Assembly (NCBI GenBank): GCA_023954415.1
Contig: JAMLIB010000008.1
Location: forward strand, 62,001 to 126,000
Length of the DNA stretch: 64,000 bases
Direction of reading: 5' to 3'
Source: Trueperaceae bacterium
Lineage (GTDB): Bacteria > Deinococcota > Deinococci > Deinococcales > Trueperaceae
Notes under the pieces: model-generated
Databases searched by the model: none
The model's input: the letters and a program-made list of their open reading frames with translations, nothing else
Told to the model about the DNA's origin: nothing
Position numbers and translations under genes: made by a program
Shown here: piece by piece, positions 53,972 to 58,240 of the stretch
Numbering within the stretch: position 1 is the stretch's first letter
Layout: every line of letters begins with the position of its first letter

Positions 53972-55324
53972 TCACTCGTCCTCCCCGGCGTCCGCCAACG
54001 GCAGGCGCACGCGGAAGACGGTCGTGCCCGGCCGACTCTCGACCGCTATGGAGCCGGCGTGGTGCTCGGCGACCTGCCGAGCGATGGCGAGGCCGAGGCC
54101 GGAGCCGCCGCCCGCGCCCTTGTAGAACTTCTCGAAGATCTTCTGCAGCAGCTCCGGCGCTATGCCCGGGCCGTCGTCGGAGACGCTCACCGTGGCGTAG
54201 CCGTCCTCCGCGTCGAGCCCTAGGGTGACGGCGCCGGGCTCGGACGCCGCGCGCACCGCGTTGGCCGTCAGGTTGCGCACCATCTGCGTGAGCCGCAGCG
54301 GGTCGCCGAGCACGAGGGCCGGCTGCCCGGAGGCCACCCTGACGCCGGGGAACTCGCCGGCCACGAGCCCGAGCACGTCGGAGCGGAGCTCGACGAGGTG
54401 CGGGTTGGGGTCGACGACGAGCTGGCCGCGGGAGAGTTGGAGGAGGTCCTCCACCAGGCGCGTCATGCTGCCGGCCACGCGCTGGGCGTCCGCCAGGTCG
54501 TCGCGCACCTCGGGCTTGGCGCGCCTCACGGCGCGGTCGAGGAAGCCGCGCAGGCTCGTGAGCGGTGTCCGCAGCTCGTGGCTCGTCTCGGCGAGGAACA
54601 CCCTCTGCGCGTCGAGCGCCTGGCGCAGCCGCTCGACCAGCCCGTTGAGCGCGGCCGTCAGGCGCCCGATCTCGTCGCGCGGGCCGTCGTACTCGATGGC
54701 CTCGAGGTGCTCGGGGCCGAGCGTGCCGGCCAGGCGCGCGAGCCGGACGAGGGGCCTGAGCGATGCCGCGGCCACGACGTAGCCGACGAGCAGGCTGACG
54801 ACGACGAGGAGCACGGCCGCGATCAGGAGGTTCCGCGACAGGTCGGCGAGCACGGCCCCGATGTACGCGGGATCGGTCAACACGACCACCACGCCGAGCT
54901 CGAAAGGCGCCAGCGCGGCCTCCATGCGCCGGCCGTCGACCGAGCCGCTCCAGGTCGTTGGGACCCCGTGGCCGGCCACGACGTCGGCGGGCGGCAGCGC
55001 GGCGGCGGCGAGCTCGAACTCGGGCCGGCTGGCGACGAGGAGGTTGCCGGCCGGGTCGTACACCTGCAGCACGACCCCGCCCGTCGCGCCCGTCAGGCTC
55101 GTGCGCGCGCTGCCCTCGCCGGAGTTGTACAGCGCGGCGACGACGCTCGCGTCCTCCTTGAGGGTGCGCCGCAACTCCTGGTAGAGCCCGGCGCGCACGA
55201 CCTGGTACGTGACCACCATGGTCAGGCCGGCGAGCAGTGCGATGGCGGTGCCGGCGAGGAGCGCCACGCGCCACGTGAGGGCGAGGCGTGGCGTGGTGAG
55301 GCGCAACGCGGGCAGGCGCTTCAC
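53972..55324 (-). CDS. membrane sensor histidine kinase
   Basis: 450 residues. Helices at about 17-39 and 165-188 enclose an extracytoplasmic domain of about 125 residues; HAMP linker at about 188-240; phosphoacceptor His249 in FLAETSHELRTPLTSL; N-box MVRNLTANAVRAA near 350; G-boxes DDGPGIAPE and GGGSGLGLAIARQV near 385-415. It phosphorylates the OmpR-type regulator encoded 19 nt upstream on the same strand. The signal is unknown; the sensor loop is rich in Ala and Gly with no Cys or metal motif. Confidence 0.93.
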   Translation of the reverse strand: MKRLPALRLTTPRLALTWRVALLAGTAIALLAGLTMVVTYQVVRAGLYQELRRTLKEDASVVAALYNSGEGSARTSLTGATGGVVLQVYDPAGNLLVASRPEFELAAAALPPADVVAGHGVPTTWSGSVDGRRMEAALAPFELGVVVVLTDPAYIGAVLADLSRNLLIAAVLLVVVSLLVGYVVAAASLRPLVRLARLAGTLGPEHLEAIEYDGPRDEIGRLTAALNGLVERLRQALDAQRVFLAETSHELRTPLTSLRGFLDRAVRRAKPEVRDDLADAQRVAGSMTRLVEDLLQLSRGQLVVDPNPHLVELRSDVLGLVAGEFPGVRVASGQPALVLGDPLRLTQMVRNLTANAVRAASEPGAVTLGLDAEDGYATVSVSDDGPGIAPELLQKIFEKFYKGAGGGSGLGLAIARQVAEHHAGSIAVESRPGTTVFRVRLPLADAGEDE

Positions 55325-55343: not shown

Positions 55344-56012
55344 TCAGGACTTCAGGGCGTAGCCGACGCCGCGCACGGTGCGGATCACTCCGAAGCCGCC
55401 CGCGTCGCGGAGCTTGCCTCGGATGTTGGCGATGTGCACGTCGACGACGTTCGACGACGGCGGCAGCTCCTCCCCCCAGACGTTGTGCTCGATCTCCTTG
55501 CGACTGTAGACCCGGCCCGGCTGGCCGGCGAGGTAGTGCAGGAGCTCGTACTCGCGGGGGCTGAAGCGCACTTCCTCCGAGGCCCAGAAGACCTGCCTGC
55601 GCGCCGGATCGATCGTCAGCTCGCCGATCTTCTGCGTCACGCCGAGGGTGCGCTTGCGCAGTTGCACGTTGACCCGGGCGAGCAGCTCCTCGACGTGGAA
55701 CGGCTTCGCCAGGTAGTCGTCCGCGCCCGCGTTGAGCATCTCGACCTTCGTGCCGACCTCGTCGGCGGCCGTGAGGATGATGATCGGGATGTTTCCCGTG
55801 TGGCGCAGCCGCCTGGCGATCTCCTGACCGCTGATGTCGGGCAGGCCAAGGTCGAGGATGACCAGGTCCGGGCTGGACTCCCGCACCGCGGACAGGCCGC
55901 GCATGCCGCTGTCGAACGCCATGACCTCGAAGCCGGCGTCCTCGAGCTCGCGGCTGAGCAGCCGCAGGATGTCGACGTCGTCTTCGACTATGAGGATCCG
56001 TTTGGCAGACAT
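55344..56012 (-). CDS. OmpR/PhoB-family response regulator
   Basis: 222 residues. Receiver domain (1-120) with VEDD at 9-12, phosphoacceptor Asp54 in LVILDLGLPD, Thr in LTAAD and Lys in AKPF. A winged-helix DNA-binding domain (about 128-222): FSPREYELLHYLAGQPGRVYSRKEI, VVDVHIANIRGKL, IRTVRGVGYAL. ATG 56012 has GGAAGGAG upstream, inside the end of the small gene before it. Partner of the kinase gene downstream. Confidence 0.93.
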   Translation of the reverse strand: MSAKRILIVEDDVDILRLLSRELEDAGFEVMAFDSGMRGLSAVRESSPDLVILDLGLPDISGQEIARRLRHTGNIPIIILTAADEVGTKVEMLNAGADDYLAKPFHVEELLARVNVQLRKRTLGVTQKIGELTIDPARRQVFWASEEVRFSPREYELLHYLAGQPGRVYSRKEIEHNVWGEELPPSSNVVDVHIANIRGKLRDAGGFGVIRTVRGVGYALKS

Positions 56013-56014
56013 GC

Positions 56015-56395
56015 TTAGAGGCTCCTTCCTATCGGTAGGTCGAGCCAGATCTCGCGCTCCTCCAGGAGGATCTCGCGTAAGGACAAGGGTCGGGACCGCC
56101 CTTCGACGGCCAGTTGCACGTCGGCGCCGCCTGGCGTGACCGTGCCTTTGTAGGCGGTCGCGCCCGCGAGCTGCGCCGCCTTGGAGCGTACGTCGTCGTC
56201 GGGTGGGAAGATGAGCACTCGTACCTCGGTGCCTGAGGGCGGGAACTCGCCGAACACGAGGTGTCCGTCGACGACCTTGGCCGAAGCGTAAACGGTCAGG
56301 AGGTCGACGGAGACGATGCGGACCTCCGTCCCCTCGGGCATGGCAGGAAGCTGGAAGACCGCCTGGCCGAGCATCAGCAAGAACGCGATGCTCAT
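56015..56395 (-). CDS. small hypothetical protein heading two-component operon
   Basis: 126 residues. The N-terminus (SIAFLLMLGQAVFQLPA) is hydrophobic and could be a signal peptide or anchor; the rest is beta-rich with PPSGTEVRVLIFPPDDDVR and an acidic end LREILLEEREIWLDLP. No family recognised. It ends 2 nt before the regulator ATG and contains that gene's Shine-Dalgarno, which supports it being real. It has no Shine-Dalgarno of its own but starts on the stop codon of a 15-codon micro-ORF. If exported it could be a sensor partner of the kinase. Confidence 0.6.
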   Translation of the reverse strand: MSIAFLLMLGQAVFQLPAMPEGTEVRIVSVDLLTVYASAKVVDGHLVFGEFPPSGTEVRVLIFPPDDDVRSKAAQLAGATAYKGTVTPGGADVQLAVEGRSRPLSLREILLEEREIWLDLPIGRSL

Positions 56396-56439
56396 CCTCG
56401 TACCAGGCCACTGCAGCGCCCATGCTCAGCGCACGTCAT
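56392..56439 (-). CDS. possible leaderless 15-residue leader peptide
   Basis: ATG 56439 lies 6 nt after TAGCAT (minus strand 56451-56446), the leaderless spacing. It encodes MTCAEHGRCSGLVRG and stops with TGA overlapping the ATG of the 126-residue gene (ATGA). The downstream gene lacks a ribosome binding site, so coupling is plausible. Confidence 0.4.
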   Translation of the reverse strand: MTCAEHGRCSGLVRG

Positions 56440-56445
56440 GCAAGG

Positions 56446-56451
56446 ATGCTA
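56446..56451 (-). promoter_or_regulatory. -10 box (TAGCAT) of the two-component operon
   Basis: On the minus strand TAGCAT is followed by 6 nt and an ATG. It is the same hexamer and spacing as before the DUF4139 gene. Confidence 0.45.
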
Positions 56452-56599
56452 TCAGTGGCGCGTGAACCGCCCGCCGGAGCCGGCTTCAGGGAACCTTAAC
56501 CGCATCTACGCCGCGCGAGTGAACGAAGTAACCTCTTCGAGGCGGCCGGCCGCTGCATGATGAGGTCGGGCTAGACATCGACTAGCGGGAAGGGAACGC

Positions 56600-58240
56600 A
56601 TGTCAGGCAACCGGGGAGCCGCACTCGTGAGTATGCGGTCGCGCCCCTTGGCGCTACTCGTCGTCGTCCTGGTGTTGGCCGCGGGCGCGGCGCACGCACA
56701 GGGGTTCGACGAGAACCGTTACTACCAGCAATGCCTTCGCTTCGAGGCCGGTGGCGACCTCGAGACGGGCCGGCAGGCCTGTCTCAACGCCCTCCAGATC
56801 CGCCCGGACTTCGCCGCTGCCGAGCTGGCCCTCGCCCGCATCGAGCTGGGCCTCGGCGAGGTGGCGAGCGCCGAGAACCGCCTGCGCCGCGTGCGCAACC
56901 GGATCGACACGGCCGAGCCCATAGTGCTCCTGGCCGAGGCCGCCCTCGCCAACCACCGGCCGGGCGACGCGGAAGCGTTACTGCAAGAGGCGAAGGGCCG
57001 CCTGGCGACGCAGGGGAACGTCGAGCTGCAGGGGCGGGTCGCGTTCCTGCAAGGCCGCATCATGCAGAGCCAGGGCCGGTTCGGCGAGGCGCTCGACGCC
57101 TACGCCGACGCGATCCTCGGCAACCCCCTCGACGTCGGCTACCGGCTGGCCGACGCCAGGCTCAGGCTGCGCCTCGGCGAGCCGGCCTCGGCGGAGCAGC
57201 AGCTGCAGAGCTACATCAACCTCACGGGCGACGACCGGAACCCCGACGTGCGCTCGCTGATGGGCCGCGCGCAGTGGGCGAACGGGGAGCTCGACGCCGC
57301 CAACGGCAACATCGCCACGGCGCACCAGCTCCGCGGGGTACGCAACGTCTCGGCCCAGGCCGACGATCTGCGCGCCCTGGCCCTGATCGCCTACGCCCAG
57401 GGTGACGTCGACGCGGGCGGGCTCGCCATGCGCGAGTCGTTGAAGCGCGAGAACCTGACGTCCTTCCTGCGCGGCAACTCGCTCATCTGGCTCCTCCTGC
57501 TCGTGCTCCTCGTCGGCGCGCACCTCATCGGCGAGAGCCGCATCGCGTCGTCCTCCACCCTCGAGGTGGTCGACGGCCCGCGGAACTGGAGCGTCGGCCA
57601 GGTCTACTCGACCCTGTTCGCCGCGCTGCTGCTCGCGCTCCTCGTGACGGTCGTCTACGGCCTCGTGCGGTACGACAACTCGTTGGCCATCGTCACGCCG
57701 CCGCTGCGGAGCGAGACGCACGCGCTCTTCGTGACGGTGTTCGCCGTGCTGCTGGCGCTGCTGGCCTGGCGCCGGGTGCAGAGCAACGGCTTCGACGCCA
57801 TGGAGACGCTCCTCGGCGGCTCGCGCTTCACCTCTTACGGGATCGGGTGGGGTGCGCTGTTCCTCGCCGCCACCCTCGCCTACCTGCACTACTTCGACGG
57901 GGGGCTCGGCCGGTTCTACCTGGACTTCGTGCGCGTCTCGCCCTTCGTAGTGGCCGCGGCCTTCCTCGTGCCCCTCGCCGAGATCTACTTCCGGCCGTTC
58001 GTGATGACGCCGCTCACGCGCAGGTACGACGGGGCCATCGCGGCCGTCGCCTCGGCCTCCCTGTCGGCCATCGCCTTCGGCACGCCCACCCTGCTGCTCG
58101 TCGTAATGGGGCTGCTCCTGGCCGACGCCTACCGGCGCCGGAGGAGCGGCTGGGAAGTGCTGGTGGCGCAGCTCACCATGCACCTGGGGCTGCTGGCCGC
58201 TGCGCTCCTCAGCCCCTGGGTCAGAGCGCTCTTCTACTAG
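56600..58240 (+). CDS. TPR protein with C-terminal CPBP-like membrane domain
   Basis: 546 residues. Signal peptide or anchor in residues 12-34, ending AHAQ. Tetratricopeptide-like helical repeats fill about 40-275 (ACLNALQIRPDFAAAELALARIELGLGE and successive units). From about 290 come seven or eight membrane helices. The last part resembles CPBP intramembrane proteases but with degraded motifs: AEIYFR instead of EExxxR, no His in the second motif, and MHLGLL without the Asn of the third. It may have lost protease activity and serve as a membrane scaffold. GGGAAGGGA lies before the ATG. Upstream of truB by 31 nt. Confidence 0.65.
   Translation: MSGNRGAALVSMRSRPLALLVVVLVLAAGAAHAQGFDENRYYQQCLRFEAGGDLETGRQACLNALQIRPDFAAAELALARIELGLGEVASAENRLRRVRNRIDTAEPIVLLAEAALANHRPGDAEALLQEAKGRLATQGNVELQGRVAFLQGRIMQSQGRFGEALDAYADAILGNPLDVGYRLADARLRLRLGEPASAEQQLQSYINLTGDDRNPDVRSLMGRAQWANGELDAANGNIATAHQLRGVRNVSAQADDLRALALIAYAQGDVDAGGLAMRESLKRENLTSFLRGNSLIWLLLLVLLVGAHLIGESRIASSSTLEVVDGPRNWSVGQVYSTLFAALLLALLVTVVYGLVRYDNSLAIVTPPLRSETHALFVTVFAVLLALLAWRRVQSNGFDAMETLLGGSRFTSYGIGWGALFLAATLAYLHYFDGGLGRFYLDFVRVSPFVVAAAFLVPLAEIYFRPFVMTPLTRRYDGAIAAVASASLSAIAFGTPTLLLVVMGLLLADAYRRRRSGWEVLVAQLTMHLGLLAAALLSPWVRALFY

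Follow-up and report, generated by a model that had tools for sequence, protein, structure and literature searches.

A conserved leaderless micro-ORF probably relays ribosomes into a two-component operon of the Trueperaceae

A leaderless micro-ORF of 15 codons lies at the head of a two-component operon in the window (the whole 64,000-nucleotide stretch of Trueperaceae DNA analyzed here), and its stop codon overlaps the start codon of the first gene of the operon (called gene A here). Comparison of homologous loci establishes, at the level of sequence, the geometry of this arrangement, its conservation, and the phasing of its promoter to an upstream box. The locus is real and conserved, and it is probably a functional leaderless relay. 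We consider it likely that the micro-ORF loads ribosomes in this way and so feeds the two-component operon.

The micro-ORF occupies positions 56392–56439 on the minus strand and would encode the peptide MTCAEHGRCSGLVRG. Its ATG is at 56439–56437, and its TGA stop is at 56394–56392. Gene A (56015–56395, minus strand) starts with the ATG at 56395–56393, and the tetramer common to the micro-ORF stop and the gene A start is ATGA (56392–56395, minus strand), the proposed site of re-initiation. The coordinates and the peptide given by the first-pass annotation were exact. As in coupled leaderless small ORFs, the start codon is placed directly behind a −10 element. This is the extended −10 promoter element TGATAGCAT (56446–56454, minus strand), made of a TG at 56454–56453 and the hexamer TAGCAT at 56451–56446, of which only four of six positions match TATAAT. 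The spacer between the hexamer and the ATG is ccttgc (56445–56440, 6 nt). The locus thus carries the TANNNT motif 6–7 nt upstream of a start codon that marks leaderless promoters in the Deinococcota, and a transcription start at or near 56439 is predicted. The order of −10 box, 6 nt, ATG, and a stop overlapping the next start had been read correctly in the first pass, and the same geometry recurs at 14 of the 30 homologous loci compared, each from a different genome. Gene A of the window has no usable Shine–Dalgarno (SD) sequence, in agreement with the original claim that it lacks a ribosome binding site. The anti-SD duplex in front of it has an energy of −3.8 kcal mol−1, compared to a window background median of −3.0 kcal mol−1, and a GAGG adjoins the ATG with zero spacing.

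Gene A encodes a conserved protein of 126 residues with an N-terminal hydrophobic stretch, is predicted to be mostly β, and is present in 93 of 111 genomes of the class. No Pfam or NCBIfam family was found for it at an E-value of 0.001, and a PDB sequence search was likewise without result. The structure model is mostly β and of moderate confidence (pLDDT 75.8); no PDB fold matched this model at an E-value of 0.001. Gene A is followed by an OmpR/PhoB-type response regulator (55344–56012, minus strand; PhoB model 1.7e-56, below its cut-off) and by a HAMP/HisKA/HATPase sensor histidine kinase (53972–55324, minus strand; Pfam matches), which bears out the OmpR-type two-component genes proposed at first. 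The regulator comes after gene A at all 30 family loci and at 54 of 60 further loci. Gene A, which precedes this regulator almost without exception across the class, possibly acts as a partner of the two-component system in an accessory or sensory role. The best solved relative of the window response regulator is PDB entry 3q9s (E-value 4.6e-72, 55% identity), which we take to be DrRRA of Deinococcus radiodurans. Identity to 3q9s is 48–64% for other operon-type or best copies and 44–46% for most second copies, one of which (L191) reaches 56%. PMC10778927 describes DrRRA (DR_2418) as essential for radioresistance.

Gene A is present in 31 of the 39 genomes of the family, and 30 of these were classified with one locus each (L002–L031). 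Three arrangements could be identified. In the relay arrangement, a leaderless micro-ORF has a stop that overlaps the gene A start; this is seen at 14 of the 30 loci (L002–L005, L007, L009, L010, L020, L022, L023, L026, and L029–L031). In the direct arrangement, gene A is itself leaderless and starts 5–7 nt after the −10; another 14 loci are of this type (L006, L011–L019, L021, L025, L027, and L028). The other two, L008 and L024, lack a leaderless relay and have a short leader instead. The extended −10 TGNTANNNT is found 5–7 nt before an ATG or GTG at 26 of the 30 loci, and for the remaining loci the arrangement was set by anchoring on the upstream box. The relays of L023 and L026 start with GTG. 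At L006, which belongs to the window's own genus, gene A begins where the others begin the micro-ORF. Conservation of the micro-ORF and of its ATGA overlap in related genomes had been proposed as a check in the first pass, and absence of the frame from relatives as grounds for rejection; the frame is kept at 14 of the 30 loci, with an RTGA overlap at 12 of these 14.

At L008, the −10 TATCAT lies 33 nt from the box and is followed by GTG AGA AGA TGA. This three-codon frame overlaps the gene A ATG, is 11 nt from the −10, and is possibly a degenerate relay. Left unclassified were G001, which has two divergent copies (L086 and L102), and the second copy in G036 (L076). These three gene A homologs have no regulator behind them in the stretch examined and are possibly paralogs with another role.

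The micro-ORF stop overlaps the gene A start codon at all 14 relay loci, with frames of 11–19 codons. The two loci without RTGA have ATGTTAA (L030) and ATGATTGA (L023). With the spacer shuffled and the frame randomized, the chance of such an overlap is 0.14–0.37 per locus. The product over 11 lineages (L002–L004 counted once and L023/L026 once) is 1.6e-7, an indicative figure, as the lineages are partly dependent. The relay peptides, for example MTCAEHGRCSGLVRG, MTRKWPGPGFAREGR, MSRTTRALTFARLS, MERASLPEGTP, MNVVTCPPRVAR, and MSCTSLSHFFSGAR, have nothing obvious in common except the start. They cannot be aligned between lineages and show no similarity between genera, while the start, the frame, and the overlap persist. 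Judged from these comparisons, the arrangement is beyond chance, and it is the overlap that is selected and not the peptide sequence.

The overlap also bears on a plain short 5′ UTR, in which 30S subunits would start gene A independently and the micro-ORF would be incidental. Such an explanation fits the short leaders of L008 and L024 and the SD-like tracts that precede gene A inside the micro-ORF of L005 (−10.8 kcal mol−1), L020 (−10.6 kcal mol−1), and L010 (−7.5 kcal mol−1). However, no SD sequence precedes gene A in the window, L004, or L007, and an incidental frame would not be expected to end on the gene A start 14 times out of 14. We therefore regard the short 5′ UTR as unlikely. The first-pass claim that translation of gene A depends on the micro-ORF is supported at the level of sequence by the persistence of frame and overlap, but the strong SD-like tracts of L005, L020, and L010 speak against exclusive dependence. 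Where the SD sequence is strong, as at these three loci, coupling need not be the sole route to gene A.

Upstream of the −10 in the window is TTAAGGTTCCCTGAA (56485–56499, minus strand), a direct repeat with an 11-bp period and the putative binding box for the response regulator that the operon itself encodes. The −10 hexamer begins 33 nt after this repeat. The sequence TTAAGGTTNNCTGAA has a single occurrence in the whole 3.2-Mb genome at ≤1 mismatch. At the 25 loci that have enough upstream DNA and a −10 selected independently of the box, a TNAA-N7-TNAA repeat is always found either 32–33 nt (13 loci) or 42–43 nt (12 loci) before the −10, two spacings that are one helical turn apart. L020, where a spacing of 44 ties with 33, enters the box counts with 33. 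The best repeat matches six of six positions at 19 of these loci and five of six at the other 6, and shuffled sequences reach six of six in 0–1.3% of cases, except for L030 (9%). The box class is present at 29 of the 29 loci with enough upstream DNA (L009 has too little), at four of which the −10 had been selected for its distance from the box. Since 11-bp direct repeats suit OmpR/PhoB-type regulators, autoregulation is the natural reading, and the operon's own response regulator probably binds the box. The spacing classes differ between clades.

A GGTTACTTCGTTCACT-like element (window 56516–56540, minus strand) is also present at L003 and L005–L007. It sits between the operon and a divergent TPR-protein gene at 56600 and could be a promoter or a second site for that gene.

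The strongest argument for use of this −10, and for a transcript that starts at the micro-ORF, is the phasing of the −10 to the box. Starts adjacent to a −10 also peak sharply in a congener. Of the 318 called genes in a 400-kb stretch sampled from it, 31 have TANNNT placed 6 nt ahead of a possible start and 18 have it 7 nt ahead, compared to about three genes at each of the other spacings, a pattern that PMC12340547 reports for the phylum. Together with the phased −10 and the frame and overlap kept in relatives, this peak supports, at the level of sequence, the leaderless start proposed in the first pass. Transcription might instead start elsewhere, or the hexamer might not be a promoter, and a simple sigma-70 scan did find no promoter at the locus. 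That scan requires a −35, whereas the element here is an extended −10. With the −10 kept 5–7 nt from a start at 26 of 30 loci and phased to the box at 25 of 25, we consider a different start to be very unlikely.

Relays are rare genome-wide. Among the 46 called genes of the window and the 318 of the congener, the only other relay at a spacing of 5–7 nt is one frame of five codons. Four relays at this spacing were found in the G012 sample (220 genes) and five in the G036 sample (306 genes), little above their own backgrounds at other spacings and with no clear excess. Gene A lies outside the congener, G012, and G036 samples.

The peptide of the window contains two cysteines and one histidine in 15 codons, all kept in the two closest relatives, which had suggested a metal- or redox-sensitive attenuator. 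Cysteine-responsive leaderless ORFs exist in mycobacteria: Canestrari reportedly described polycysteine leaderless attenuators there in 2020, and these too are short leaderless ORFs heading an operon. Unlike them, the operon of the window has no cysteine cluster and no cysteine-metabolism genes, and the cysteines are not conserved. Cysteine is present in 7 of the 14 micro-ORFs, three of them near-copies, and is missing from the other seven. Without collapsing, the 14 loci contain 11 cysteines versus 5.8 in shuffles (P = 0.03); with near-copies collapsed to 11 lineages, 7 are observed versus 5.0 expected (P = 0.23). No conserved cluster of cysteine codons was found among the 14 micro-ORFs. No terminator was found between the micro-ORF and gene A either; the stop/start overlap leaves no room for one, and the micro-ORF leads straight into gene A. 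There is no conserved occlusion of the gene A start by RNA structure, as the unpaired probabilities at the 14 relay loci scatter around those of shuffles; the first 100 nt of the window leader fold with a z-score of −1.43. Because the cysteine excess is not significant after collapsing and no terminator was found, we dropped the attenuator. A peptide-sensing device responding to metal, redox state, or cysteine is highly improbable. A functional small protein as the product of the micro-ORF is scarcely credible: the frame is open at 14 loci and MITL..NDS is common to two loci of one genus (L023 and L026), but similarity between genera is absent and most changes among L002–L004 alter the residue (counted by eye).

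In the proposed relay, RNA polymerase would start on the A of the micro-ORF ATG or on a neighboring base, as the −10 and its phasing suggest. A 70S ribosome would begin on the 5′-terminal AUG without an SD sequence, a mode known from the Deinococcota. It would translate the 15 codons, stop at the TGA, and re-initiate one base back on the gene A ATG. The peptide would be a by-product, and selection would keep an open frame of 11–19 codons that ends on the gene A start. Such a relay would let the promoter hold a fixed helical phase with the upstream box, although gene A starts 38–63 nt further down.

A tree was built from gene A and the regulator with 36 rows, six of them outgroup rows entered as direct. 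Relay loci are found in most branches of the family; the direct arrangement is seen in the outgroup rows, in L021 with its long branch, and in one clade of 12 loci. If the leadered loci are omitted, the tree needs no more than three changes, a count in which gain and loss are indistinguishable and the position of L021 is unsure. One example of such a history is a single gain followed by two losses, in the 12-locus clade and in L006. An anchored scan of 60 further loci (57 from other families and 3 from the family itself) gave 26 direct loci, no relay, and 34 loci without assignment. These 34 comprise 30 without an anchored box/−10 pair and 4 without a start codon at 4–12 nt, and several of them look direct by eye and were not counted. 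Six of the 62 genomes of the order with gene A fall outside the set (G083, G084, G086, G096, G097, and G105).

Shell et al. (2015; PMC4633059) report that leaderless small ORFs coupled through RTGA are over-represented in mycobacteria, and in an example given there, the leaderless start and the coupling are conserved and the peptide is not. The Trueperaceae micro-ORFs have the same leaderless RTG start, short frame, and RTGA overlap with the downstream gene, and here too the coupling outlasts the peptide. They differ from the mycobacterial ORFs in belonging to another phylum, in that start and coupling are read from DNA sequence, and in that one orthologous promoter is followed across a family, where the relay alternates with direct leaderless initiation. 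For Deinococcus–Thermus, PMC12340547 describes a −10 motif adjacent to ORFs, TANNNT 6–7 nt before the start codon with no 5′ UTR, as is found at our loci. That paper covers direct leaderless genes, and uORFs, small peptides, and Truepera are absent from its text. According to the review PMC12548453, a short frame upstream of a gene may supply that gene with ribosomes. Overlapping stop and start codons are also the basis of ATGA termination–reinitiation between ordinary genes, as described in PMC12548453 (see also PMC6728339), whereas the upstream frame here is a leaderless one of 15 codons and not a gene. Our literature search gave no title on such leaderless relays in Deinococcus–Thermus or Truepera, and an earlier mention in Deinococcus is possible. 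Coupled leaderless small ORFs are already known in mycobacteria; those described here belong to the Deinococcota and are unusually deeply conserved.

These results would extend coupled leaderless micro-ORFs, so far measured in mycobacteria, to the Deinococcota. Gene finders miss such frames, and in this group the start region of gene A is not a sufficient basis for judging how the gene is translated. If the regulator is orthologous to DrRRA, which is suggestive only, the relay would head the operon of a notable stress regulator. More speculatively, and improbably in our estimate, the relay could be a regulatory device, in which the whole operon is read for the most part by ribosomes able to initiate on leaderless messages (as 70S) and to re-initiate. 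Stress changes in the ribosome pool would then set the level of the master regulator, and lineages would have turned this layer of control on or off while the phased promoter stayed fixed. The family offers a natural experiment: one orthologous, box-phased promoter serves gene A in three ways, directly leaderless, by relay, and from a short leader. Comparing the three arrangements would reveal what the relay buys.
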